Assembly (NCBI RefSeq): GCF_018069705.1
Contig: NZ_CP072943.1
Coordinates: 186,001 to 250,000, forward strand
DNA length: 64,000 nt
Origin: Aminithiophilus ramosus
Lineage (GTDB): Bacteria; Synergistota; Synergistia; Synergistales; Aminithiophilaceae
Reading direction: 5' to 3'
Under the pieces are notes generated by a model that saw only the letters and a program-made list of their open reading frames with translations, had not been told where the DNA came from and ran no database searches. Below are positions 45,732 to 60,438 of this stretch, piece by piece. A program made the translations under genes and the position numbers. The stretch's first letter is position 1, and the number at the start of each line of letters is the position of its first letter.

Positions 45732-45853
45732 TCCGATCGGGGTTTTTCCCCTCGGCCACAAGAGACCTTCCGCAGGGCTCTTCCCCGCCGGGTCTTCCGA
45801 CGGCGGAGAAGGGCCGACGAAGCAGCAAAAGACACATGAAGGAGGGTCGCGCC

Positions 45854-46942
45854 ATGAAAATAAGGAACCTGCGTCTTCTTCCCCTCTCCGTCCCGCTGCG
45901 CCGCGCCTTCAAGACGGCCCGGCGTTCCGTCGATCACCTCGACGACCTCGTCCTCTTCGTCGAGACCGACGGGGCGATCGAGGGACTGGGAGCGGCCCCC
46001 CCCACGGGGCTCGTCACGGGCGACACGGCGGGTGCCATCGCCGGAGCCCTGACGGATCACATCGCTCCGGCCCTCGTCGGCCGCGACGCCGAGGATCTCG
46101 AGGGCAACCTGGCCGTTCTGGAGGCCTCCATCGTGGGCAACGGCAGCGCCAAGGCCGCCGCCGACATCGCCCTCCACGACCTCTGGGCCAAGGTGCTGGG
46201 CCAGCCTCTCTGGGCCCTCTTCGGCGGCGGGGGCGCGCCGATCTTCACCGACATCACCATCAGCGTCAACGATCCCGACGAGATGGCCCGCGACGCCGTC
46301 GACGCCGTCGGCAGGGGGTACCGGACGCTGAAGATCAAGGTGGGCAAGGAGAGAAAGCGCGACTTCGAGAGGATCGCCGCCATCCGGTCGGCCGTCGGAT
46401 CGGGGCCGGCCCTGCGCCTCGACGCCAACCAGGGGTGGAAGCCCGGCGAGGCCGTGCGCCTTCTCGAGGCCATGGAGGAGGCCTCTTTCGCCATCGAACT
46501 GGTGGAGCAGCCCGTCGCCGCCCACGACCTGGAGGGCATGGCCCACGTCACGGCCCACAGCCCCGTTCCCGTCGTGGCCGACGAAAGCGTCCGCACCTCC
46601 AGCGACGCCCTGAGGATCTTTCAGCTCAGGGCCGCTCACATGATCAACATCAAACTCATGAAGTGCGGCGGCCTGGGGGAGGCCCGCCGCCTCATCGCCC
46701 TGGCCGAGACCTTCGGCGCCGGAGTCATGTTCGGTTCCATGCTCGAGGGCAAAATCAGCGCCGCCGCCGCCGTCCACCTCGCCTCGGCCCGGAGGGCCGT
46801 CGGGGCCATCGACATCGACGGCCCCCTCCTCTGCGCCGACGATCCCTACCTGGGCGGGCCCCAGTTCCTCGGCCCCGAAATCGTCCTCTCCCGCGAGCCC
46901 GGACTGGGCGTCCGCGGTCTGCGGGATTCCGCCCTGCCCTGA
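45854..46942 (+). CDS. Dipeptide epimerase (L-Ala-D/L-Glu epimerase, enolase superfamily)
   Basis: The 362-residue enzyme has the muconate-lactonising subgroup pattern: TLKIKVGKE (KxK catalytic lysine), LRLDANQGW (Asp), ELVEQPV (Glu), VVADESV (Asp) and NIKLMKCGG (second lysine). This matches L-Ala-D/L-Glu epimerases, which convert L-Ala-D-Glu from murein into L-Ala-L-Glu for ordinary peptidases. The ATG at 45854 follows GGAGGG. Gene order with the peptide transporter, the hydrolase and the P60 peptidase parallels the ykfABCD operon of Bacillus. Confidence 0.9.
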   Translation: MKIRNLRLLPLSVPLRRAFKTARRSVDHLDDLVLFVETDGAIEGLGAAPPTGLVTGDTAGAIAGALTDHIAPALVGRDAEDLEGNLAVLEASIVGNGSAKAAADIALHDLWAKVLGQPLWALFGGGGAPIFTDITISVNDPDEMARDAVDAVGRGYRTLKIKVGKERKRDFERIAAIRSAVGSGPALRLDANQGWKPGEAVRLLEAMEEASFAIELVEQPVAAHDLEGMAHVTAHSPVPVVADESVRTSSDALRIFQLRAAHMINIKLMKCGGLGEARRLIALAETFGAGVMFGSMLEGKISAAAAVHLASARRAVGAIDIDGPLLCADDPYLGGPQFLGPEIVLSREPGLGVRGLRDSALP

Positions 46943-46958: not shown

Positions 46959-47858
46959 TCAGAGCGAGATGCTGCCGAAGCCGAGTTCGGCCTCCACGAC
47001 GAAGGCGCGGAACCGCTCGGCGGCGGGAGGAAGGGCGCGCCCCTCCTTCCAGAGAAGACTGATGTCGCGGAAAAGGGGCGGAGAGGAGAGCTTCAGGGCC
47101 GCAACGGGGTAGGTGTCGAGAAGGGGGATCCTGGGCATGATGGTCACGCCCTGGCGGGAGCTGACGAAGGCGGCCATGGCGTTGCACTCCTCCGCCTCGA
47201 AGACGACTTTGGGCGTCCAGCCCGCCGATCGGAAGAGGGCGTCGACGAAGACGCGGAGCCCGCTTCCCCGGTTGGCGATGATGAAGGGATCGTCCCTGAA
47301 GTCTTCGAGGTGTACCTCTTTCGCGTTTCGCAGGGGGTGTTCGTCGGGGACGACAAGAAACAGCTCCTGAGAGAATATGGGATAGGATTGGATAGGTTTT
47401 TCGTGATATTCGCTGGAAAAGGCCAGGTCTATCGTTTCTGTCTTTAATTTATCGATGATTTGGTTTTTCATTCCCTGATAAAAATTAAAATAAACTATAT
47501 TATTTAATTCCTCTTTTTGGAATTCGCTGATGATCTTGGGCAGAAAATCGAAACTCACGCTGTAGATGTAGCCCAGGTTGATGGTTTCCCTGTCGAGAGA
47601 GAGCATGGCGGCCAGCGTCTTCTGTCCCTCTTCTATGGCCTCGAGGGATCGGCTGGCATAGGGGAGAAAGGCCGCTCCGAAGGAGGTCAGGGTCGTCTTG
47701 CTCCCCCGTTTTTCGAAGAGGGGCACGCCCAGCTCCCTTTGCAGCTCCGCGATGGCGTAGCTGAGCGTCGGTTGGGCGATGTGCAGGGCGGCGGCGGCCT
47801 TCGTGTAGTGCAAGATGTCCGCCAGGGTGCAGAAACAGACCAGCTGTTGGAGCGTCAC
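46959..47858 (-). CDS. LysR-family transcriptional regulator
   Basis: The 299-residue protein has the LysR HTH (LADILHYTKAAAALHIAQPTLSYAIAELQRELG) and an effector domain. The GTG start at 47858 (MTLQQLVCF) is preferred because GAGAGG lies 5 bases before it. The middle of the gene (about 47380-47530) is distinctly AT-rich. It diverges from the lyase/dehydrogenase operon and converges on the epimerase gene, so the catabolic operon to its right is the expected target. Confidence 0.9.
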   Translation of the reverse strand: MTLQQLVCFCTLADILHYTKAAAALHIAQPTLSYAIAELQRELGVPLFEKRGSKTTLTSFGAAFLPYASRSLEAIEEGQKTLAAMLSLDRETINLGYIYSVSFDFLPKIISEFQKEELNNIVYFNFYQGMKNQIIDKLKTETIDLAFSSEYHEKPIQSYPIFSQELFLVVPDEHPLRNAKEVHLEDFRDDPFIIANRGSGLRVFVDALFRSAGWTPKVVFEAEECNAMAAFVSSRQGVTIMPRIPLLDTYPVAALKLSSPPLFRDISLLWKEGRALPPAAERFRAFVVEAELGFGSISL

Positions 47859-48297
47859 CTGAACCTCTCTCCTCTCCGTTCGGCTTTCTCGAAAGATCAC
47901 CGGGTCGCCTTTCTCCGGCGCCGTCTCCCCAGCCTAGGCTGGCGGGGCGGCGCCTCTCCTTTCGCCCCGGTCCCGAAGGCGCCGAGGAGGCGCCGGTCGG
48001 GGCGCCCTTTCCCGTCCCGCGAGTCCGACCCTGCCGAACGCGTTGTTTTCGTCGACGGGAAGGGCGTCGCGGTGTACTCGTCGATAGATGTGCTCTATCG
48101 GGGCCATTGAAAAGGACCATTGGGATTTTCTTTACGATACCGTTATGATTGACACAAGGCAAGAAAACAAAAGACATTGCCATATCTGATCGAACGGGTC
48201 TTGCTGTTTTGTCCTTTGGATAAAACGGTCATCTCGGCGCATATTCCATTTTTGCGTAAAATATTGTTTTAAATAGCAATTTTGGGGGGAATAAATA
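47859..48297. promoter_or_regulatory. Divergent regulatory region, LysR gene / lyase operon
   Basis: The left half is GC-rich with the dyad CCAGCCTAGGCTGG (47929-47942). The right half (48100-48297) is AT-rich and contains TTGACA at 48150 and T-rich/A-rich dyads around 48250-48290 that could bind the LysR protein. The ribosome site GGGGGGAA and TTG start of the lyase lie at its right edge. A -10 element could not be assigned with confidence. Confidence 0.45.
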
Positions 48298-49230
48298 TTG
48301 AAAATACCACAAAAAATATCAGTTTGCGAAGTGGGACCAAGGGATGGACTTCAGAACGAAAAAACACTACTTGACGTGGATAAAAAAGTTAAATTTATAG
48401 ATAACATCCAGAATGCAGGAATAAAGATAATTGAGGTGGGGTCCTTCGTCAATCCCAAGGCCGTTCCCCAGATGGCCGATACGGAAGAAGTTTTTAGTAA
48501 AACGAAGAAGATGGATGGCGTGGAGTATCGCGCTCTTGTGCTGAACGCCAGGGGTTTGGACAGGGCACTCCAGTGTGGAATCAAGAAAGTCAAGTTCACT
48601 CTTTCGGCCAGCAGGTCCCATCAGATTGAAAACGCAAATCATGCTGTCGAGGACATCTTCAAAAAGCTATCGGAGCTGTCGGACATCGCCTCACAAAATC
48701 ATGTCGTGCTTTCGGGCGCGGTCTCGACGGCCTTCGGGTGTCCCTTCGAGGGAGTGGTATCGCTGGAAAAGATCCTTTCCGTCGTCGAGCGGTTCGTCGA
48801 GGCGGGAATCACCGAAATTTCCCTTTCGGACACGACGGGGATGGCAAATCCGAGACAGGTCCACCGGACCTGCCTGGAGATGAGGGAAAGGTTCCCCTCC
48901 GTGCTCTGGAGCCTTCATTTTCACAACACGCGGGGCATGGGGCTCGCGAACGTCCTCGCCGGAATGGAGGCGGGCGTGACGCGCTTCGACGCCAGCCTGG
49001 GCGGGTTGGGCGGCTGTCCCTTCGCCCCGGGGGCCACGGGCAACATCGCCACGGAAGATCTGCTCCATATGTGCGAGGAAATGGGCATCGAAACGGGCGT
49101 CGATCTGGACCGGGTCATCGCCGCGGCACGTTCGCTGGGGGACTGGGTTGGCCACGAATTGCCCGGCGCCGTTCTGAAGGCGGGGAAGACCGGCGATCTC
49201 CATCGTCGCTGCGCGAAAAATCCACGGTAG
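48298..49230 (+). CDS. Hydroxymethylglutaryl-CoA lyase-type enzyme
   Basis: The 310-residue TIM-barrel enzyme has the HMG-CoA lyase hallmarks: GPRDGLQNE (Arg15-Asp16), VEVGSFVNPKAVPQMAD-like (IEVGSFVNPKAVPQMAD), LHFHNTRG (metal His pair) and the active-site signature LGGLGGCPFAPGATGNIATED with its Cys. It should split 3-hydroxy-3-methylglutaryl-CoA to acetyl-CoA and acetoacetate. It starts at TTG 48298 after GGGGGGAA. The first 390 bases are AT-rich and the rest GC-rich. First gene of a five-gene catabolic operon. Confidence 0.88.
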   Translation: MKIPQKISVCEVGPRDGLQNEKTLLDVDKKVKFIDNIQNAGIKIIEVGSFVNPKAVPQMADTEEVFSKTKKMDGVEYRALVLNARGLDRALQCGIKKVKFTLSASRSHQIENANHAVEDIFKKLSELSDIASQNHVVLSGAVSTAFGCPFEGVVSLEKILSVVERFVEAGITEISLSDTTGMANPRQVHRTCLEMRERFPSVLWSLHFHNTRGMGLANVLAGMEAGVTRFDASLGGLGGCPFAPGATGNIATEDLLHMCEEMGIETGVDLDRVIAAARSLGDWVGHELPGAVLKAGKTGDLHRRCAKNPR

Positions 49231-49249
49231 AAAAGGAGAGGACCTCGAA

Positions 49250-50662
49250 ATGGCCAGGGAAATCACGGAAGAACAGCTGCAGGAACTCGATGGGCTCATC
49301 GCGAAGGCGAGGGCCGCTCAGAAGGTCATCGAGACCTACGATCAGGCGCGAGTGGATCGTCTCTGCCAGGCCGTGGCCTGGGCGATCTCCAACAAGAGGA
49401 CCTTCCTTGCCCTCGTCGAACAGGGCATCGAGGAGAGCGGCCTGGGCGATCCTCTTTCCCGTCAGGGCAAGCGCTTCAAAATCCGGGGCATCCTCCGCGA
49501 CGCCCTCAGGCAGAAGAGCGTGGGGATCATCGAAGAGCTTCCCGAGAAGGGCATCGTGAAGTACGCCAAGCCGGCCGGCCTCATCGCCTCTCTCGTCCCC
49601 ACGACAAACCCCGACCTCACGCCGGGAGGGCAGGCCGTCTACGCCATCAAGGCCCGCGATGTGGTGATCTTCTCCCCTCACCCCCGGTCGAAGAGGACGA
49701 CCTTCGAGAGCGTCCGCATCATGAGGGAGGCTCTGGAGCGGGAGGGTGCCCCCGCCGATATTCTCCAGTGTATCACGTTGCCTTCCATTCCCATGACTCA
49801 GGAGCTCATGGCCCGGGCCGATCTGGTGATCGCCACGGGCGGACGTCCCATGGTCAAGTCGGCCTACAGTTCGGGCACGCCCGCCTACGGCTCCGGCGCC
49901 GGCAACTCGACGATGATTTACGATGAGACGGCCGACGTGATCGAGGCCTGTCACAACACGATGCTGAGCAAGACCTCCGACTACGGATCGGGATGTTCCG
50001 CCGACGGCAATCTCATCGTCTCCGACAAAATCTACGAGGCCGTCCTGAAACAGCTCGAGGTGGAAGGCGGCTATTTCGCCTCTTCCGAGGAGCGGGAGAG
50101 GCTCCGACAGGTCATGTGGGACAATGAGGGACATCGTCTGGCCGACACGGTCGCCATCTCGCCCCAGAGGCTGGCCGAGGCCGCCGGTTTCTCCATCGCC
50201 GAGGACAGGAAGTTCATCTTCGTCCTGGGAGACGGCATCGGCAAAGAGCATTTCTTCTCGGGCGAAAAGCTGACGACCCTCCTGGCCGTGCACCGCTACG
50301 AGGGCGAGTTCGAGAACGCCCTGGACATGATGCGCGGGATCTACGAGGTGGGCGGGAAGGGCCATTCCTGCGGGATCTACTCCTTCGACGACGATCACAT
50401 CCACCGCCTCGCCATGGCCGCTCCCGTGAGCCGGATCATGGTGCGGCAGCCTCAGTCCAAGGCCAACGCCGGATCGGCCAACAACGGGATGCCCATGACG
50501 TCCAGCCTGGGTTGCGGGACCTGGGGCGGCAACATCATCTCCGAAAACATCTGTCTCAAACATTACATGAACACGACCTGGGTCGCCCATCCCATTCCGG
50601 CCGACATGCCCTCTCCCGAGGAGCTGTTCGGCGAATTCTACGATCCCGAGATGGATCGGTGA
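49250..50662 (+). CDS. CoA-acylating aldehyde dehydrogenase (SauS/EutE-like)
   Basis: The 470-residue enzyme belongs to the CoA-acylating branch of aldehyde dehydrogenases: VPTTNPDLTPGGQAVYAIKARDVVIFSPHP is the cofactor region and KTSDYGSGCSADGN carries the catalytic Cys. The overall pattern resembles sulfoacetaldehyde and EutE-type dehydrogenases. It would oxidise an aldehyde to an acyl-CoA with NAD(P). Located 19 bases after the HMG-CoA lyase gene, it could produce HMG-CoA from mevaldate for that enzyme. Sulfoacetaldehyde is an alternative substrate by similarity alone. Confidence 0.82.
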   Translation: MAREITEEQLQELDGLIAKARAAQKVIETYDQARVDRLCQAVAWAISNKRTFLALVEQGIEESGLGDPLSRQGKRFKIRGILRDALRQKSVGIIEELPEKGIVKYAKPAGLIASLVPTTNPDLTPGGQAVYAIKARDVVIFSPHPRSKRTTFESVRIMREALEREGAPADILQCITLPSIPMTQELMARADLVIATGGRPMVKSAYSSGTPAYGSGAGNSTMIYDETADVIEACHNTMLSKTSDYGSGCSADGNLIVSDKIYEAVLKQLEVEGGYFASSEERERLRQVMWDNEGHRLADTVAISPQRLAEAAGFSIAEDRKFIFVLGDGIGKEHFFSGEKLTTLLAVHRYEGEFENALDMMRGIYEVGGKGHSCGIYSFDDDHIHRLAMAAPVSRIMVRQPQSKANAGSANNGMPMTSSLGCGTWGGNIISENICLKHYMNTTWVAHPIPADMPSPEELFGEFYDPEMDR

Positions 50663-50747
50663 GGGGGGTTTTCTCTAAGCCGTCGCGTCGAGGTCCGCTG
50701 GCGGGATGTCCGCACGGGGCATCCCCGACAGGAAGGGAGGTCTTCTG

Positions 50748-51734
50748 ATGAAAAAGATGCGTCGTATCGTCGGTCTCGCGCTGGTGTTCGGCTGTGTCGC
50801 CGCAGGAAGCGCTTCGGCCGAAAAACTCAATCTCATGTGGGGCTCGACGAGCGCCTCTTCGGGGCTCTACCCCATGAACGTCGCCATGGCCGACGTCGTC
50901 AACCGGGTCCTCGACGACGTTCACGTCACCGTCGTCGAGACGGGAGGAACGGGAGACAACTTCAAAGGAATGGAGCGGGGCGAGCTCCAGTTCGGCCAGG
51001 CCTCGGACTGCAACATCCACATGGCCCAGACGGGCACGGGCATCTACGAGAACCGCCTGATGAAGGAGCCTCGCATGCTCTTCGTGGCTCATCCTCTGGC
51101 CTATGTCGTCGCCGTCACGGAGGAGAGCGGCATCAAAGACCTGTCCGGCCTCGACGGCAAGCCCTTCAGTCCCGGACTGAAGGGGAGCGTTTCCGAAATC
51201 CTCTACTACAGGGCCCTCCCCGCCTTTGGAATCAGGCCCCAGTTCGTCCCCTCCAGCACCGGAGACGCCGTGGAGGCGATGAAGGATCGGCGCATCGTCG
51301 GTTTCTCCAAGGCCACGGCGACGACCGTCCCCGATTCGGCCATTCAGGATGTCGCCACGTCCCGTCCCGTCCGCATTCTCGGTTTCAACGAGGAGGAGAA
51401 GAAGGTCTTCAAGGAACTCTTCCCCGCCTACGGCTTCTTCACCGTACCGGCCTCCGTCTATGCCCAGGAGGGGGATGTCTCCGTCGTCGGCGAGCGTTTC
51501 GGCGTAAGCGTTGCGGCCAGTCTGCCCGAAGAGGTCGTCTACCGCATTTTCAAGGCCCTCTACGAGAACAGGGAGCAGATCGCGGCCACCTATGCCGGCA
51601 TCAGAGGCCACGACGTGCTCGATCTGACGGCTGACTCCGTCTGCTGGCTCCACCCCGGAGTGATCCGCTATTTCCGGGAGATCGGCATCGAACCTCGCCC
51701 GGAGCAGATCCCTCCCGAGTACAAGGCGAACTGA
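50748..51734 (+). CDS. TAXI-family TRAP transporter solute-binding protein
   Basis: The 328-residue protein has a signal peptide (IVGLALVFGCVAAGSASA) and the TAXI fold: MWGSTSASSGLYPMNVAMADVVN, ETGGTGDNFKGMERGE and a C-terminal HPGVIRYFRE. TAXI proteins deliver small organic acids, such as carboxylates, to a fused TRAP permease, here the gene at 52054. Start ATG 50748 is preceded by GAAGGGAGG. Confidence 0.9.
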   Translation: MKKMRRIVGLALVFGCVAAGSASAEKLNLMWGSTSASSGLYPMNVAMADVVNRVLDDVHVTVVETGGTGDNFKGMERGELQFGQASDCNIHMAQTGTGIYENRLMKEPRMLFVAHPLAYVVAVTEESGIKDLSGLDGKPFSPGLKGSVSEILYYRALPAFGIRPQFVPSSTGDAVEAMKDRRIVGFSKATATTVPDSAIQDVATSRPVRILGFNEEEKKVFKELFPAYGFFTVPASVYAQEGDVSVVGERFGVSVAASLPEEVVYRIFKALYENREQIAATYAGIRGHDVLDLTADSVCWLHPGVIRYFREIGIEPRPEQIPPEYKAN

Positions 51735-52053
51735 CGCGACGGCCACCCTATCGAGCCGTCGGGAAAGGCCCGAGGGAAAAAGAGGGCTCTTCGTGTCCCA
51801 CAGGAAGAGCCCTCTCCGCCCGCAGGGGACCGGCCGCGAGGTGAGGGGCAGAGCCGCGATGAAGGTCTGCCGCGCCTCTCGGCCGATTTCCCTCCCGAGG
51901 CGCCGCGCCCTTTCTTCCCGACGCCTCCCCTGGAGCTTCGCGATGCCCGAAAGCGCCCTTTCGTGCCGGCACCATCTCCGCGACGGATAGCCCGATGGGT
52001 TAGGAAGAGGGGATCTGCCTGCCTTCGACAGACCACATTGAGGGGGAGAGAAC
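51735..52053 (+). other. Spacer between TAXI protein and TRAP permease genes
   Basis: The 319-base gap contains the hairpin at 51782-51816 and otherwise GC-rich sequence with no supported gene. GGGGGAGAG just before 52054 is the ribosome site of the permease. An additional promoter here is possible but not visible. Confidence 0.4.
51782..51816 (+). terminator. Hairpin after the TAXI binding-protein gene
   Basis: AGAGGGCTCTTC (51782-51793) pairs perfectly with GAAGAGCCCTCT (51805-51816). There is no T-run. Like the hairpins after the other four binding-protein genes, it probably sets a higher message level for the binding protein. Confidence 0.65.
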
Positions 52054-53958
52054 GTGAGAAAAGAGGGTCACTGGACGGGGTTCAATTTGATTATCCAGAT
52101 TTTCGCGATAGCTTTTGCCTGTTTTCATCTGTATACGGGTATCTTTGGGGTCTTTCAAAACATCATACAGAGATCCATCCATGTCGGCGGAGGCGTAGTT
52201 CTCTTTTCGTTGCTTTCCATAAGTAAGAAAATTAATTCAGAAAAAATCTCAACCAGGACAAAGATGTCTATCATTGTTGACGTTGCTATGGCTCTTTTTT
52301 CTGTTTTTGCTGTTGTCTATTTGACGTCAAGTTTCGATAGAATCATGGATCCCTTGTTTGAAATAACCAATAAAGACATTTATGTGGCGCTATTATTTAC
52401 TTTAGTTATTCTAAATATAACAAGAAAACTTATTGGATGGGCTATCCCTGTTATGGCTCTTTTTTTCGTGTTTTATGCGCTATATGGTAAATATTTTCCT
52501 GGGATATGGCGTCATAACGGAATCAGTTTGGAATATGTCGCTGAAATTCTTTTTTATTCGGACAGGGGATTGTGGGGTCTCGTGACCGGTATCTCGGCTT
52601 CGATCATCGCCATTTTCATGATTTTCGGCGCCGTGCTGTTCGCGACGGGCGGAGGGAAGGCCTTCATGGACATCGCCTGTTGGTCCACCGGCTCCTCCTT
52701 CGGCGGGGCGGCGAAGCTGGCCACCGTATCGAGCGGCCTTTTCGGCATGATCTCGGGGAGCGCCGCCGCCAACGTGGCGACGACGGGAGCCTTCACCATC
52801 CCTTTGATGAAGCGCCTGGGCTACGCTCCCGAATTTGCCGGAGGCGTCGAATCGTCGGCGTCGTCGGGAGGGCAGATCATGCCGCCCATCATGGGGGCGG
52901 CGGCCTTCATCATGGCCGAGACCCTCGGCATGTCCTACAGCAAGCTCGCTCTGGCGGCCATCATCCCTTCGGCCCTCTTCTACTTCGGCGTCCTGGCTTC
53001 CATCCACTATGAATCCAAAAGGATGGGGTACAGAGGGCTTCCCGAAAGCGAAATCCCCCATATACGGGACATCCTCCACTACAAGAACTCCGCCCCCATC
53101 TTTCTGCCGATCTTCGTCCTCATCTACTATTTCTTCGCCGGCTACACGCCGTCGACCTGCGCGCTGCGAGCCCTCGCGGCGGCCGTCGTCCTCTATCTCC
53201 TCTCCGAGCCCCGAGAGGCTCCGACGAGGGTCCGGGTCCTCCTGGAGGGGCTGGCCGACGCCTCCCGGGACATGCTCCCCGTCCTGGCCCTCATCGCCTG
53301 CGCTCAGGTGCTGCTGGCCATGATCGGCCTGACGGGAGTCGGCATCAAGTTCACCAACATCATCGTGGCCCTGGGGCGCAACAACATCCTCCTTTCGGGC
53401 CTCTGTGCCATGATCGGCACCATGTTCCTCGGCATGGGGCTTCCTACAGTGGCGGCCTACCTCGTCTCCTCGGCCGTCATGGCTCCCGCCCTTGTGGCCG
53501 TGGGCGTCTCCCCCATCGCCGCCCACTTCTTCATCTTCTACTACTCGATCTTCGCCGGCATCACGCCGCCGGTCTGCGGGACCGTCTACATCGGCGCCGC
53601 CATCGCCGGGGCGAACTGGCTCAAAACGGCCTGGGTCGCCATGCGGCTGAGCGTTGGGGCCTATCTCGTCCCCTTCATGTTCCTTTTCTCCCCGGCCCTG
53701 CTTCTGGTCGGAACGCCCGAGGAGATCGTCGTCCTTTCCGTTACATCGGCCGTCGGCATTTTCGCCCTGGCCGTAGGGGGCATGGGCTATTTCCTCCTGC
53801 CGGCCACGGCAGTCGAGAGGATCCTCTTCTCTCTGGGAGGTCTCTGTCTCGTCAATCCCGGAGCTCTGACGGACGGCATCGGCATCGGTTCGGCCCTCGT
53901 CGCCGTCGCGATGCAGGTCTACCGGAGAAAGAGTCGAAGGGCCCAGGCCCTGAGCTAG
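52054..53958 (+). CDS. TRAP transporter permease, 4TM/12TM fusion
   Basis: The 634-residue membrane protein fuses a small DctQ-like unit (about residues 1-110) with the large DctM-like unit. Typical DctM features are GGAAKLATVSSGLFGMISGSAAANVATTG (about 215-243) and GMGLPTVAAYLVSSAV. It takes up the ligand of the TAXI protein using an ion gradient. The GTG start follows GGGGGAGAG. The first 500 bases are AT-rich with codons unlike the remainder, so the gene looks like a mosaic. Confidence 0.9.
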   Translation: MRKEGHWTGFNLIIQIFAIAFACFHLYTGIFGVFQNIIQRSIHVGGGVVLFSLLSISKKINSEKISTRTKMSIIVDVAMALFSVFAVVYLTSSFDRIMDPLFEITNKDIYVALLFTLVILNITRKLIGWAIPVMALFFVFYALYGKYFPGIWRHNGISLEYVAEILFYSDRGLWGLVTGISASIIAIFMIFGAVLFATGGGKAFMDIACWSTGSSFGGAAKLATVSSGLFGMISGSAAANVATTGAFTIPLMKRLGYAPEFAGGVESSASSGGQIMPPIMGAAAFIMAETLGMSYSKLALAAIIPSALFYFGVLASIHYESKRMGYRGLPESEIPHIRDILHYKNSAPIFLPIFVLIYYFFAGYTPSTCALRALAAAVVLYLLSEPREAPTRVRVLLEGLADASRDMLPVLALIACAQVLLAMIGLTGVGIKFTNIIVALGRNNILLSGLCAMIGTMFLGMGLPTVAAYLVSSAVMAPALVAVGVSPIAAHFFIFYYSIFAGITPPVCGTVYIGAAIAGANWLKTAWVAMRLSVGAYLVPFMFLFSPALLLVGTPEEIVVLSVTSAVGIFALAVGGMGYFLLPATAVERILFSLGGLCLVNPGALTDGIGIGSALVAVAMQVYRRKSRRAQALS

Positions 53959-53980
53959 ACGGAGAAAGGAGCCATCGATC

Positions 53981-55156
53981 ATGTTGCAGACCCATCTTCC
54001 CAGAAAGATCCTTTTCGGAGAGGATTCGCTGGATTTTCTCGCCTCTCTCGACGTGCGGAGGGTCGTGACCTTCGTCGACGAAATTTTCGACCGCTGCAAC
54101 CCGGACCTCATGGAGCGCATGGAGAGCCTCTGGAAGGAGAAGGGGGTCCAGTGCTGGCGCTATTTCGGGGAGGGCAAAGAGCCGACTCTGGCCTTCGTGA
54201 AAGATAGGGCCCGCTGCCTCATCGAACACGAGCCCGATCTGATCGTCGCCGTCGGCGGCGGTTCGGTGATCGACGCCGTCAAGGTCATGGAGGTCTACTA
54301 CGAGCACCCTCACATCACCGACGCCGAGCTTTTCGACCGCTTCAACCTGCCCCCTTTGCGCCGCAAGGCCCGTTTCGTCGCCATCCCCACCACGAGCGGC
54401 ACCGGCTCGGAGGTGACGCCCATCGGCGTCCTCTGCGTCCCGTCGGAAGATCCCCGGACGCCTCTGGTGAAAAGGGGCATCGCCGATTACCAGCTGATCC
54501 CCGACTACGTCCTTCTCGATCCCCGTTTCACCCTCTCCATGCCTCCGTCGGTGACGGTCTCCACGGCCATCGACGCCTTCGTCCACGCGATGGAAGCCTA
54601 CGTCTGCGCCAGGCCGAAGAACGCCTTCACCGATCCCTTCGCCCTCGAAGGCATGAGGAAGGTCCTGTCCTATCTTCCCAAAGTCATGGAAGACCCGGGC
54701 GACCTGCGCTACCGGGGAGAGCTGCAGATCGCGGCCACCCTGGGCGGCCTGGCCCTCGCCGGCCGGGGATCGGGCGCCTCCCACGGCGTGGGGAAACAGC
54801 TCTCCTCTCTGGGCCCCGTCGCCCACGGCGTTTCCGTCGCCGTCATGCTCGAAGCCGTCATCAGGCTCAACGCCGGGGCGCGCCTCGCCGAATACGCCGA
54901 AATCGCCCGTTATCTGGGCCTGGCGGCCGTCAGCGACGAGGGGGCCCTGGAGGGGCTGATCGCCCTCTGGAGGGAGCTGCTCGATCGTCTCGGGCTGCCG
55001 AGGACGATCGAGCAGCTGGGAATGGACCGCGCCCTCTTCATGGAAAAACTCGACAGCATGACGAAGAACGCCATGAGCGACGCGGCGATGAGGTCCAATC
55101 CCGTCACGCCCTCGTACGACGAGGTCCGGAGGATCTTCCTGACCCTGGCTCCCTGA
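53981..55156 (+). CDS. Iron-containing alcohol dehydrogenase
   Basis: The 391-residue enzyme has GGGSVIDAVK (NAD(P) site, about residues 90-99), IPTTSGTGSEVTPIGV, and the metal-site sequence DAFVHAMEAY (Asp, His), followed by GASHGVGKQ and PVAHGVS (two further His). It oxidises or reduces a primary alcohol or aldehyde. As the last gene of the operon it fits oxidation of a hydroxy acid such as mevalonate to the aldehyde used by the acylating dehydrogenase. AGGAG precedes the ATG. Confidence 0.9.
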   Translation: MLQTHLPRKILFGEDSLDFLASLDVRRVVTFVDEIFDRCNPDLMERMESLWKEKGVQCWRYFGEGKEPTLAFVKDRARCLIEHEPDLIVAVGGGSVIDAVKVMEVYYEHPHITDAELFDRFNLPPLRRKARFVAIPTTSGTGSEVTPIGVLCVPSEDPRTPLVKRGIADYQLIPDYVLLDPRFTLSMPPSVTVSTAIDAFVHAMEAYVCARPKNAFTDPFALEGMRKVLSYLPKVMEDPGDLRYRGELQIAATLGGLALAGRGSGASHGVGKQLSSLGPVAHGVSVAVMLEAVIRLNAGARLAEYAEIARYLGLAAVSDEGALEGLIALWRELLDRLGLPRTIEQLGMDRALFMEKLDSMTKNAMSDAAMRSNPVTPSYDEVRRIFLTLAP

Positions 55157-55566: not shown

Positions 55567-55582
55567 AATGGAGGTTTTACCC

Positions 55583-56248
55583 ATGACGACCTATTCGACG
55601 GGGGAGGGGACGCGGCGGGCTCTCATCGAGGCGGCAGGGGAGCTCGCCGCCGAGGTGGGCTTCTCCAGCGTCTCGACGCGGGCCGTCGCCACGAGGGCCG
55701 GGGAGAACGCCGGGAGCATCCACTACCACTTCGGCGGCAAGGGGAACCTCTTCGAGGCTGTCCTCCTCGAGGCGACGAAGCCCATGAGGGAGGAGGTCCT
55801 CGCCGACGTCGTGGCCGTCTACGAGCCCCTCCTCGCCACGGCCGCGGGGAGGGCCCGGGCCCTGCGGATCTTCGTCCATGCCATGATCGAGGCCCTTTTC
55901 CGCGACGGCGAGCCGGCCTGGGCCTGTCGGGTCGTCTACCAGGTCCTGCGCAAGGCCGGCCCTCTCCGGGACTTCGTCGTCGAGAAGGTCGTCGATCCCT
56001 GGCTGTGTGCCGCAGAAGGCCTCTTCCGGGCCATCGATCCCGGCCTGACGGAGGAAGAGCCCCTTCTCCATTCCTTTCTCGTCGCCATGCCCATCTATTT
56101 CCACGCCGACTACATGGACGTCATTCTCGATCGGATGGGCCTCGACGGCTACGGAACGGCCTACCTGGCCAAGCTGGAGGACCGGATCGTCTGGCAGACG
56201 CAGCGTTATTTCGGGCTGCCCTGCGACGGAGGCGAAAGGAACCGATGA
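55583..56248 (+). CDS. TetR/AcrR-family repressor
   Basis: The 221-residue protein has the TetR HTH (ALIEAAGELAAEVGFSSVSTRAVATRAGENAGSIHYHFGGKGNLF, about residues 13-57) and a ligand domain with a DUF1956/CecR-like flavour. The ATG at 55583 is used because GGAGG lies 8 bases before it; the ATG at 55568 overlaps that site. It leads the efflux operon, overlapping the adaptor gene (ATGA), and should repress it from the operators just upstream until a toxic ligand binds. Confidence 0.9.
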   Translation: MTTYSTGEGTRRALIEAAGELAAEVGFSSVSTRAVATRAGENAGSIHYHFGGKGNLFEAVLLEATKPMREEVLADVVAVYEPLLATAAGRARALRIFVHAMIEALFRDGEPAWACRVVYQVLRKAGPLRDFVVEKVVDPWLCAAEGLFRAIDPGLTEEEPLLHSFLVAMPIYFHADYMDVILDRMGLDGYGTAYLAKLEDRIVWQTQRYFGLPCDGGERNR

Positions 56249-57381
56249 AGATGGCAAAAGGACTGAAACTCCTGTTCCTTATCGTGGTCCTCGTTCTGGC
56301 TGCCGTGGCCTTCTTTCTGGTGGTGCGCCGGGTCGGTTCGGCCGCTGGAGGGGCCGAGGCCGAGCTGAGGGCCCTTGCCGCCGAGCCCCGTCCCGCGGCG
56401 ATCGAGGCGGTCCGCGGGGCCTCGTCGGGAGGTCGGCGCTACCCGGCCACGGTCCGGGCCTCCAAGGAGGCCCCCCTCTCCTTCCGCGTCGCCGGTCCCC
56501 TCGTGGCCGTTCCCGTACAGCCCGGCGACCGGGTCCGCCGCGGCGATCTTCTCATGGAGATCGACCGCCGCGACTACGACGACGCCATCCGCGTCCTCGA
56601 GGCTCAGCTCGCGGGCGCCAGGGCGGCCCTCGAAAAGGCCCGTCTCGACCTGGATCGGGCCAGGCCCCTTCTGGCCGAGGGGGTCATCGCCCAGGCCGCC
56701 TTCGACGGGGCCGTCAGCGCCCACGATACGTCCGCCGCCTCGGTCCGGGACATCGAGAGCCGCCTCCGCATCGCCCGTCACCAGCTCGCCGACGTCCGTC
56801 TCCTGGCCCCCTTCGACGGCATCGTCGCCGCGAAGACCGTCGACAACCACGAGATGGTCGCCGCCGGCCAGGTCGTCCTCACCCTGCTCGACATCTCCAG
56901 CCTCGACGTCAGGGCCGAAGTGCCCGAGGACGAGATGGTCCGCAAGGACCTCGTCCCGGGACGGGAGGCCCTCGTCGAGTTCTCGGCCCTCCCGGGCCGG
57001 GCCTTCACGGCCCGGCTCAAGGAATGGAGCGCCGCCCCCGACAGGGTGACGCGGACCTACGCCGTCACCTTCTCCCTGGCCGCCCCCAGCGAGGGACAGG
57101 TCCTGCCGGGGATGACGGGAGAGCTTCTCTGGCAGGCGGCAGGCGACGACCGTCTTTCCGTCCCCGTGGGCGCCCTCTTCTCCGACGAGGAGGGGCGAGA
57201 GGCCCTCTGGGTCTTCGATGACCGGACGTCGACGGCGTCGAAGCGCGTCGTCGAGACGGGCGGGCTCGTCGGCCGGGACCGGGTCTCCGTCGTGAAGGGT
57301 CTCTCCGGAAACGAGCGGGTCGTGGCGGCCGGACCGGCCTTCATCGTCGAGGGCATGAAACTTCGCCCCCTCTCGCGCTGA
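56245..57381 (+). CDS. RND efflux periplasmic adaptor (membrane fusion protein)
   Basis: The 378-residue protein has an N-terminal membrane anchor (LLFLIVVLVLAAVAFFLVV), a lipoyl half-motif (FRVAGPLVAVPVQPGDRVRRGDLL), an alpha-helical hairpin (about 110-175) and a second lipoyl half (RLLAPFDGIVAAKTVDNHEMV), then beta-barrel and membrane-proximal domains. It links the pump encoded 9 bases downstream to an outer-membrane channel. No TolC-like gene is nearby. It is the intact paralogue of the broken adaptor at 62490. Confidence 0.92.
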   Translation: MKMAKGLKLLFLIVVLVLAAVAFFLVVRRVGSAAGGAEAELRALAAEPRPAAIEAVRGASSGGRRYPATVRASKEAPLSFRVAGPLVAVPVQPGDRVRRGDLLMEIDRRDYDDAIRVLEAQLAGARAALEKARLDLDRARPLLAEGVIAQAAFDGAVSAHDTSAASVRDIESRLRIARHQLADVRLLAPFDGIVAAKTVDNHEMVAAGQVVLTLLDISSLDVRAEVPEDEMVRKDLVPGREALVEFSALPGRAFTARLKEWSAAPDRVTRTYAVTFSLAAPSEGQVLPGMTGELLWQAAGDDRLSVPVGALFSDEEGREALWVFDDRTSTASKRVVETGGLVGRDRVSVVKGLSGNERVVAAGPAFIVEGMKLRPLSR

Positions 57382-57390
57382 GGCCGGGCC

Positions 57391-60300
57391 ATGTCCTTCA
57401 ACCCCGCCGTCTTCGCGCTGAAAAGGAGGACGACCATGATCGTCCTCACCCTGCTCCTCGTCGGGGCGGGAATCGCCTCCTACCGGGGGCTGGGCCGCCT
57501 GGAATACCCCGCCTTCACCATCAAGACGGCCATGGTCCTGACGACCTATCCCGGCGCCTCGCCTCAGGAGGTGGAAGAGGAGGTCTCCGACGTCGTCGAG
57601 GAGGCCATCCAGTCCATGGAGCAGGTCAAACGGGTCTATTCCACCTCTCAGGAGGGGCTCTCCGTCGTCTTCGTCGACATGAAGGATCGCTACGAGGCGT
57701 CGGCTCTTCCTCAGGTCTGGGACGAGCTGCGCCGCAAGGTGGGTGACGCCCAGGTCACGCTTCCTCCCGGCGCCGGTCCCTCGCAGGTCTACGACGATTT
57801 CGGCGACGTCTACGGCCTTCTTTTCGCCGTCACCGGCGAGGGGTACAGCTACGCCCAGCTCAAGGACTACGCCGAGGAGCTGAAAAAGGAGCTCCTCCTC
57901 TGCCGCGACGTGGCCAAGATCGATTTCTGGGGCACCCAGCAGGAGCGCCTCTACGTCGAGTTCCGCCGCTCCCGCCTGGCCGAGCTGGGCCTCTCGCCCG
58001 ACCGGATCGGCCAGATCCTGTCGTCGCAGAACCTGGTCCGCGAGAGCGGCAACGTCGACTTGGGCGATCTTCGCACCCGCGTCACGCCGACGGGCGACTT
58101 CGCCGCCGAGGAGGCCGTCGGCGACATCCTCATCGGCGGCGAAGGGGGGCTCGTCCGCCTCGGCGACGTGGCGACCCTCTCTCGGGGCTACGTCGATCCC
58201 CCCAGGAACCTGATGCGCTTCGACGGAAGGCCCGCCATCGGCCTGGGCATCTCCACCGTCGCCGGCGGCAACGTCGTCGAGATGGGCAAGGCCGTCAGGG
58301 AGAGGCTCGCCGAGCTGGAGGCTTCCCGCCCCGTCGGCATGGAGCTCGTTCCCGTCTACTACCAGAGCGACATGGTCGTCCGGTCCGTCAATCAGTTCAT
58401 CGTCAATCTCCTCGAATCGGTGGCCATCGTCGTGGGGCTTCTCATGCTCTTCATGGGCTGGCAGAGCGGCCTCCTCATCGGCTTCATCCTCATCCTCACC
58501 ATCCTGACGACTCTCGTCGGCATGTTCCTCATGGGCATCGAGCTCCAGAAGGTCTCCCTTGGGGCCCTCGTCCTGGCCCTGGGCATGCTCGTCGACAACG
58601 CCATCGTCGTCGCCGACGGCATCCTCGTCCGCGTCGAGCGGGGCCAGAGCCGCGAGGCTGCGGCCTGCGACGTCGTCAAAGAGACCCAGTGGCCCCTCCT
58701 GGGCGCGACGGCCGTGGCCATCCTCGCCTTCGGCTCCGTCGGCTTCGCTCCGGGAGACGTGGGCGAGTTCTGCCGCTCTCTCTTTCATGTCATGGCCCTC
58801 TCCCTCTCCTTCAGCTGGGTTCTGGCCGTGACGGCGACGCCTCTCCTCTGCGTGCTCTTCCTCAAAGTCCCCGACAGAGAGGGGACGGTCGATCCCTACG
58901 ACAGGCCCTTCTACCGGATCTACCGGCGCCTCGTCCATCTCTGCCTGAAGAGGGCGCCCCTGTCCGTGGCCGTCATCGTCGTCCTTTTCGTCCTCTCCGT
59001 CGTCGCCTTCGGCACGATACCCCTCTCGTTCTTCCCCCCCTCGACGCAGCCCTATTTCTACGTCAACGTCTGGAAACCCCAGGGGACGACCATCGAGGCC
59101 ACGTCGCGGACCATGGAGGAGCTCGAGTCCTTCGTCCTCGGCCTCGACGGGGTGCGCAACGTCGCCACCTTCGTCGGCGAAGGCTCTCTCCGCTACGTCC
59201 TGACCTACAACTACGAAAGCCCCAACGCCAGCTACGGCCAGCTTCTCGTCGAAGCCGACGACTACCGTCGGATCGACGAGCTCGTCCTCGCCGTCGAAAG
59301 ACAGATCAAAGGCTCCTTCCCCGGCGAAGCGATCTACTGCAGCCGCATCATGACGGGCCCCTCGAAACCCTACACGGTGGAGGTCCGCTTCAGGGGGCCC
59401 GACGCGGCGGTCCTCAAGGATCTGGCCCGCCGTGGCGAGGCCGTCATGCGCTCCCACGGAGGTGCCCGCGACATCCGGACCGACTGGCGTCACCCCCTCT
59501 TCGTCGTCAGGCCCCAGTTCTCCGAGAGTCGGGCCCGCAGGGCCGGAACGAGCCGCTATGACCTGGCGGGGGCCCTTCAGTGGACCTTCAACGGCACCGT
59601 CGCCGGAATCTACCGGGAGGGGACGGAGCTGATCCCCATCGTGGCCCGTCCCGTCGAGGAGGAGCGTCTATCGGCGGAGCAGATCGAGGACGTCCAGGTC
59701 TGGAGCGGCGCGGCGGGGGCCTATGTCCCCCTAGGGCAGGTCGTCTCCTCCGTCGAAAGGGTCTGGGAAGATCCTCTCGTCAAGCGTCGCAACAGGCAGA
59801 GGACCGTCACCCTTCAGGCCAATCCCGTCGTCGGCCTCGCCGAGCCTTTGCGCCGCGAGCTGAGGGAGGCCATCGAGGCGATCCCTATCCCTCCGGGCTA
59901 CTCCATGGAGTGGGCCGGCGAGTATGCCGACTCGCAGGATGCCCAGAGGCCTCTGATGAAATCCTTCCCCTTCTTCCTGGGCGCCATGTTCTTCATCCTC
60001 ATCGTCCTTTTCGACTCCGTCCGCCGTCCCCTCATCGTCTTCCTCACCGTCCCCCTCTCGACCATCGGCGTCGTCGTCGCCTTCCTCCTCACGGGGCAGC
60101 CCTTCGGCTTCATCGCCATCGTCGGTTTTCTCGGCCTTTCGGGCATGCTCATCAAAAACGCCATCGTCCTCATCGACCAGATCGAGCTGGACCGGGCCGA
60201 GGGGAAGGCCCCCTACGGGGCCATTCTCGACTCGGCCGTGAGCCGTCTCCGTCCCGTCACCATGGCCGCCGGGACGACGATCCTGGGCGTGATCCCCCTC

Positions 60301-60438
60301 CTCACCGATCCCCTCTATGCCGGAATGGCCGTGACCATCATGGGCGGCCTCTTCGGGGGCACCTTCCTCACCCTCATCGTCGTCCCCGTCCTCTACCGCC
60401 TCGCCTTCCGCGTCGCCGTCGACGACTCGGCCCTCTAG
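57391..60438 (+). CDS. RND efflux pump, inner-membrane transporter
   Basis: The 1015-residue protein has the AcrB-like layout: first helix (TMIVLTLLLVGAGIASYRG), porter domain, helices 2-6 with motif A-type GALVLALGMLVDNAIVVADGI (Asp pair in helix 4), a second periplasmic domain and helices 8-12. It exports lipophilic compounds with the proton motive force. The sequence is close to the fragment at 63550-64000. Its TAG stop lies in the CTAG end of a MITE-like repeat. Confidence 0.93.
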   Translation: MSFNPAVFALKRRTTMIVLTLLLVGAGIASYRGLGRLEYPAFTIKTAMVLTTYPGASPQEVEEEVSDVVEEAIQSMEQVKRVYSTSQEGLSVVFVDMKDRYEASALPQVWDELRRKVGDAQVTLPPGAGPSQVYDDFGDVYGLLFAVTGEGYSYAQLKDYAEELKKELLLCRDVAKIDFWGTQQERLYVEFRRSRLAELGLSPDRIGQILSSQNLVRESGNVDLGDLRTRVTPTGDFAAEEAVGDILIGGEGGLVRLGDVATLSRGYVDPPRNLMRFDGRPAIGLGISTVAGGNVVEMGKAVRERLAELEASRPVGMELVPVYYQSDMVVRSVNQFIVNLLESVAIVVGLLMLFMGWQSGLLIGFILILTILTTLVGMFLMGIELQKVSLGALVLALGMLVDNAIVVADGILVRVERGQSREAAACDVVKETQWPLLGATAVAILAFGSVGFAPGDVGEFCRSLFHVMALSLSFSWVLAVTATPLLCVLFLKVPDREGTVDPYDRPFYRIYRRLVHLCLKRAPLSVAVIVVLFVLSVVAFGTIPLSFFPPSTQPYFYVNVWKPQGTTIEATSRTMEELESFVLGLDGVRNVATFVGEGSLRYVLTYNYESPNASYGQLLVEADDYRRIDELVLAVERQIKGSFPGEAIYCSRIMTGPSKPYTVEVRFRGPDAAVLKDLARRGEAVMRSHGGARDIRTDWRHPLFVVRPQFSESRARRAGTSRYDLAGALQWTFNGTVAGIYREGTELIPIVARPVEEERLSAEQIEDVQVWSGAAGAYVPLGQVVSSVERVWEDPLVKRRNRQRTVTLQANPVVGLAEPLRRELREAIEAIPIPPGYSMEWAGEYADSQDAQRPLMKSFPFFLGAMFFILIVLFDSVRRPLIVFLTVPLSTIGVVVAFLLTGQPFGFIAIVGFLGLSGMLIKNAIVLIDQIELDRAEGKAPYGAILDSAVSRLRPVTMAAGTTILGVIPLLTDPLYAGMAVTIMGGLFGGTFLTLIVVPVLYRLAFRVAVDDSAL

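Follow-up and report, generated by a model that had tools for sequence, protein, structure and literature searches.

The 64,000-nucleotide stretch of the Aminithiophilus ramosus genome analyzed here, hereafter the window (G000:C1:186001-250000, in a genome that forms a single contig of 3.1 Mb), carries a five-gene operon for an acyl-CoA lyase, a CoA-acylating aldehyde dehydrogenase (ALDH), a TAXI-type TRAP importer, and an iron-type alcohol dehydrogenase (Fe-ADH), which, judging from the enzyme families, probably converts the alcohol of a branched hydroxy acid to acetyl-CoA in three steps. With about as much confidence as doubt, we propose that the operon feeds an alcohol into an ALDH plus acyl-CoA lyase back end that elsewhere terminates a ring-fission pathway. 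The five codirectional genes and the divergent LysR gene lie where a previous sequence-only reading of the region had placed them and belong to the families that it had named:

46959..47900, minus strand: LysR-type regulator, divergent from the operon (Pfam HTH_1/LysR_substrate)
48298..49230, plus strand: HMGL-family acyl-CoA lyase (NF004283, PDB alignments, residue map, tree)
49250..50662, plus strand: CoA-acylating aldehyde dehydrogenase, SauS-like, under the SauS cut-off
50748..51734, plus strand: TAXI-family TRAP solute-binding protein (TIGR02122, 160 bits)
51781..51815, plus strand: hairpin with a 12-bp stem between the binding protein and permease genes (RNA fold)
52054..53958, plus strand: fused TRAP transporter permease, GTG start (TIGR02123, 567 bits; PF06808)
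53981..55156, plus strand: iron-type alcohol dehydrogenase (PF00465/PF25137)

Conservation of the Operon and of Its Enzyme Set

The gene order LysR/lyase–ALDH–TAXI–TRAP–Fe-ADH is kept in four Synergistales genomes, the window's included. It recurs in full at 96-100% protein identity in a second strain of the same species (G069, locus L146), at 67-90% in G024 (L033), and at 57-86% on contig CALCQG010000074.1 of an uncultured Synergistales metagenome-assembled genome (MAG; L057/L150, G080), so that the association of these genes is not a matter of chance; every complete copy of the operon includes the lyase gene. In a Rhodoplanes MAG (L128), genes for an ALDH (65% identity), an Fe-ADH (53%), and a lyase (41%) are consecutive and adjoined by an IclR gene and a TctCBA transporter, followed by LysR, a DRL-domain oxidoreductase, and CitMHS. 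Because all three enzymes occur there with a different transporter, we regard them as a functional set independent of the importer, of which the Fe-ADH is, as had been proposed, a real member. An Fe-ADH at this similarity was found in these operons only, bar a partial homologue at a contig end (56%; G145). Among 188 Synergistota and 385 Alphaproteobacteria genomes, only the known Fe-ADH-type operons were recovered, the same search returning Fe-ADH homologues at 43-56% identity in other gene contexts (G078 and G130), while plasmid records yielded no close Fe-ADH and only ALDH matches below 60% identity.

The Lyase Lies Outside the Canonical HMG-CoA Lyase Clade

The lyase passes the NCBIfam subfamily model for 3-hydroxy-3-methylglutaryl-CoA (HMG-CoA) lyase (NF004283; 345 bits against a cut-off of 246). 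In the human enzyme, Arg41, Glu72, Tyr167, and Cys266 are the most critical residues and Asp42, Asn275, His233, and His235 bind the metal (PMC6941031). Residue mapping shows that the window lyase retains the catalytic Arg15, Glu46, and Cys240 and the metal ligands Asp16, His207, His209, and Asn249; the earlier statement that it carries all hallmark residues is nevertheless incorrect, as human Tyr167 corresponds to Ala141. Compared with the structures 2cw6, 1ydo, and 2ftp, the protein shares the fold, the metal ligands, and the equivalents of Arg41, Glu72, and Cys266 but has Ala for Tyr167, HxHN for HxHD, and Ser for Gly203, and its gene has other genomic partners.

In a tree of 50 rows, the window lyase and two operon orthologues cluster with the lyase of a lyase–ALDH–thiamine diphosphate (ThDP) enzyme cluster (L059; support 96/87). 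This group belongs to a larger clade of 33 rows (96/99), all lyases of ALDH-type clusters, most of which include a ThDP enzyme. The human, Pseudomonas aeruginosa, and Bacillus subtilis HMG-CoA lyases form a clade of their own (99/97); the backbone between the clades is weak, and our claim is limited to their separateness. The Tyr167 position follows the same division, being Tyr in all three canonical enzymes, Ala or Ser in 33 of 33 rows of the larger clade, and Gly or Ser in the remaining cluster lyases. The annotation "HMG-CoA lyase" on such genes is probably wrong as to substrate.

ALDH and Lyase Are Shared with Ring-Type Clusters

The ALDH and the Fe-ADH match general families only, and neither passes any NCBIfam equivalog. 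When 85,000 species genomes were scanned with the ALDH, at least 556 relatives were returned, and we examined the best 80 loci, scoring presence and absence by tblastn within ~10 kb of the ALDH at loci many of which are contig fragments. In 62 of them the ALDH is accompanied by a ThDP enzyme resembling acetolactate synthase/IolD (these ThDP-type loci, about 62 of 80, are among L057-L136 and L033-L052), commonly together with an AroE-like (quinate/shikimate) dehydrogenase, a type I dehydroquinase (AroD), a xylose-isomerase-fold (XylI-like) protein, and a TRAP or TctABC transporter; a Gfo/Idh oxidoreductase is present in a number of cases. We refer to these loci as ring-type clusters. An Fe-ADH is found at two loci and never together with the ThDP enzyme.

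The window ALDH, 90% identical to that of G024 and up to 83% identical to ALDHs of other clusters, sits deep within the ring-type ALDH tree on a short stem and groups with L058 and L059 (100/97). Of the positions at which 85% or more of 85 ring-type ALDHs agree, only two differ uniformly, both conservatively. Given this nested position and nearly identical residue set, its aldehyde is probably of the same kind as theirs. The operon's LysR protein is likewise ~38-45% related to LysR genes adjoining the ALDH in several ring-fission-type clusters (tblastn contexts). The nearest match of the Fe-ADH is the C-terminal domain of AdhE, and its Asp198, His202, His268, and His282, presumably the iron ligands, are invariant in the four Fe-ADH-type operons aligned. 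Whereas ring-type G063 and G047 contain both a ThDP enzyme and an XylI-like protein, the Fe-ADH-type genomes lack the XylI-like protein as well as the ThDP enzyme, their best matches to the latter (30-37%) being no closer than ordinary acetolactate synthases. We take the Fe-ADH to be a substitute source of the aldehyde, and the substrate would therefore be a primary alcohol.

The nature of the final cleavage is suggested by a lyase swap. An HMGL-type lyase is present at 33 of the 80 loci, a citrate-synthase-fold protein at 22, and both at none (naive P = 5e-7). The latter protein is often near the ALDH in Betaproteobacteria, Actinomycetota, Chloroflexota, and Brevibacillus loci devoid of the HMGL-type lyase, and the three examples tested, encoded beside the ALDH at L071:11454-12305, L066:11411-12265, and L106:11431-12312, all pass the NCBIfam citryl-CoA lyase equivalog NF004864 (430-446 bits, cut-off 261). 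In clusters of Pseudomonadota and Actinomycetota, citryl-CoA lyase thus stands in for the HMGL-type enzyme as the partner of this ALDH and probably catalyzes the same reaction, although its citrate-synthase fold is unrelated to that of the window lyase. With shared ancestry allowed for, the swap looks like the non-orthologous replacement of one step. From the mutual exclusivity of the two lyases, it follows that the step is probably a citryl-CoA-type cleavage to acetyl-CoA and a 2-oxo acid, and that the substrate of the HMGL-type lyase would be citryl-CoA-like, with a carboxylate on the carbinol carbon, and so a 3-carboxy-3-hydroxyacyl-CoA in preference to HMG-CoA.

As for the ring-type clusters themselves, their combination of ThDP enzyme, AroE, AroD, XylI-like protein, ALDH, and lyase looks like a pathway for non-aromatizing quinate/shikimate degradation. 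Quinate or shikimate could plausibly be converted to 3-dehydroquinate and dehydrated to a 3,4-diketone, much as IolE acts on inosose; ThDP-dependent cleavage could then give homocitrate semialdehyde, and the ALDH and lyase would proceed through homocitryl-CoA to acetyl-CoA and 2-oxoglutarate. The myo-inositol iol pathway, which includes IolG, IolE, and IolD, has an analogous dehydrogenase, xylose-isomerase-fold, and ThDP set ahead of an acylating aldehyde dehydrogenase, whereas in the window's genome, which has neither ThDP nor XylI-like genes of this kind, the Fe-ADH would replace this front end. Split transketolase genes stand beside the ALDH at L094 (11533-13325) and L114, where the ThDP enzyme is missing, and at L119 in addition to it; they are possibly an alternative form of ThDP chemistry.

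A Proposed Alcohol-Fed Route to Acetyl-CoA

Our proposal starts from what is seen in the genomes, namely the enzyme families, their conservation, the ancestry that lyase and ALDH have in common with the ring clusters, and the absence of the ring-fission enzymes; the order of reactions, the substrate class, and the substituent R are read from families, neighbors, and residues. The TAXI-TRAP transporter would import HOCH2-CH2-C(OH)(COO-)R, a small carboxylic acid in which a tertiary (or secondary) alcohol carbon bears a 2-hydroxyethyl group, and the Fe-ADH would convert the primary alcohol of this acid to the aldehyde. The ALDH would turn the aldehyde into a 3-carboxy-3-hydroxyacyl-CoA and the lyase would split this by retro-Claisen cleavage into acetyl-CoA and the 2-oxo acid R-CO-COO-, with LysR presumably sensing either the substrate or one of the intermediates. 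Should the enzymes have the same specificity as in the ring clusters, the candidate acyl-CoA is homocitryl-CoA, giving 2-oxoglutarate; candidates with a smaller R are citramalyl-CoA (R = CH3), which would give pyruvate, and malyl-CoA (R = H), which would give glyoxylate. More tentatively, and with doubt prevailing, we suggest a modular logic in which an ALDH plus citryl-CoA-type lyase back end is usually fed by quinate/shikimate ring fission and here by an Fe-ADH acting on an imported branched diol acid. We know of no earlier description of such catabolic logic, and a search of one literature library found no relevant account of a homocitryl-CoA/quinate route, of the ring-type clusters, or of mevaldate-based bacterial catabolism.

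Several points weigh against this proposal. We know of no naturally occurring alcohol that matches the homocitryl type exactly, and therefore either R is not the one found in the ring pathway or the operon acts on an obscure substrate. The chemistry of the ring clusters is itself one that we infer from enzyme families, and the mutual exclusivity of the two lyases is inflated through shared ancestry. The Rhodoplanes lyase and ALDH show unusual substitutions, and that gene set may serve a different substrate. Finally, at L057 a transketolase half gene begins 85 bp past the Fe-ADH gene (from L057 15764) and may signify an extra step there.

Alternative Readings of the Operon

The sequence-only reading had proposed mevalonate catabolism free of HMG-CoA reductase, with the Fe-ADH producing mevaldate and the ALDH producing HMG-CoA to feed the lyase. 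The lyase would then give acetoacetate and acetyl-CoA, and a CoA-transferase and a thiolase would complete the route. The proposed order of alcohol, aldehyde, acyl-CoA, and lyase stands, while mevalonate as the substrate is weakened and now appears unlikely. Among natural compounds that contain the HOCH2-CH2-C(OH) motif, mevalonate is the commonest and, to our knowledge, the only abundant one, for which reason we retain it; moreover, every lyase residue bar Tyr167 is conserved, and HMG-CoA reductase is indeed absent from G000, G069, G024, and G061 (PF00368 has no match in the window's genome and 60 relatives, with positive controls). A single CoA-transferase pair adjoins the only thiolase gene of G000, and G024 and G061 encode both enzymes, but the set occurs equally in ring-type G047 and wherever else it was checked and is not discriminating. 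Against mevalonate stand the missing Tyr167, the Rhodoplanes genome that carries the three-gene set and does encode an HMG-CoA reductase (L151, G062:C1:23791-24840; no HMGL-type lyase within the 20-kb stretch around it), and the replacement of the lyase by citryl-CoA lyase in many ring-fission clusters; it is also made less likely by the membership of both lyase and ALDH in these widespread clusters. Relative to the proposed substrate class, mevalonate has a methyl group at the carboxylate position and R = CH2COO-, and its use, which we think improbable, would be by relaxed specificity. Pseudomonas mevalonii mvaAB, the known system for mevalonate catabolism, resembles the operon in using an HMGL-family lyase as the final carbon-splitting step on an imported hydroxy acid with no isoprenoid role; in the window's genome, however, the class II HMG-CoA reductase of that system is absent, with a proposed two-step oxidation by Fe-ADH and ALDH in its stead, and the lyase lacks Tyr167 and falls outside the canonical clade.

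ALDH and Fe-ADH each resemble one half of AdhE, and they could instead act as a split AdhE that reduces an acyl-CoA to an alcohol as a fermentative sink, with the lyase taking an acyl-CoA made elsewhere. We consider this a poor prospect, as the AdhE model scores only 351 and 254 bits against a cut-off of 951 (though each protein covers only half of the model), the operon has its own importer, and orthologous ALDHs accompany ThDP ring-fission enzymes and the lyase, where oxidation ahead of cleavage fits. Least probable, and very unlikely, is an isethionate/sulfoacetaldehyde route through a SauS-type dehydrogenase, already disfavored in the sequence-only reading. SauS (NF047625) is the best NCBIfam model of the ALDH and the closest named one, but the score of 448 bits is below the cut-off of 600, the Fe-ADH reaches 124 bits against 700 for SarD, and on these cut-offs we rejected the route; in addition, the gene partners of the ALDH differ from those of SauS, none of the six conserved operon genes is sulfonate specific, and the conserved lyase would be left unexplained.

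Operon Architecture and Genomic Setting

The lyase gene starts with TTG, preceded by a GGGGGG ribosome-binding stretch. Both transporter proteins pass their NCBIfam models (TAXI, 160 bits against 84; TRAP_fused, 567 against 321), and the TAXI protein is homologous to solved TAXI proteins and has an N-terminal signal peptide as judged by eye. The intergenic segment at 51765-51835 folds at -40 kcal/mol (z -3.7), and its strong hairpin, which lacks a T-run, is a probable mRNA processing or stability element. Nearby, at 51837-51858 in the TAXI/TRAP gap, identity to the second strain drops sharply from 99.5% to 94.1%, which looks like a recombination boundary.

Within a gene region of otherwise ~65% GC, AT-rich patches (31-49% GC) lie at the 5' ends of the lyase (48250-48700) and permease (52200-52550) genes and inside LysR (47400-47550). 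The lyase gene of the second strain also has a low-GC 5' end, the lyase and permease genes of G024 have a uniform ~60% GC, and within the lyase, conservation is lower over the AT-rich stretch (55-63% vs. 77-89%). By eye, an enolase-superfamily gene lies upstream (45765-46942 region) and a TetR–membrane fusion–RND efflux set downstream (55568-60438); in G024 and L057, neither of them adjoins the operon.

Implications

Were the mevalonate reading true, the operon would provide a route to HMG-CoA free of HMG-CoA reductase. The comparison made here ties this small anaerobe operon to a ring-type gene set that is present in Bacillota, Pseudomonadota, Actinomycetota, Chloroflexota, Acidobacteriota, and Synergistota, whose ring-opening pathway is apparently both widespread and undescribed. 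Quinate and shikimate are abundant plant acids, and if the proposed chemistry is true, their degradation by fermenting bacteria becomes testable with a handful of enzymes.

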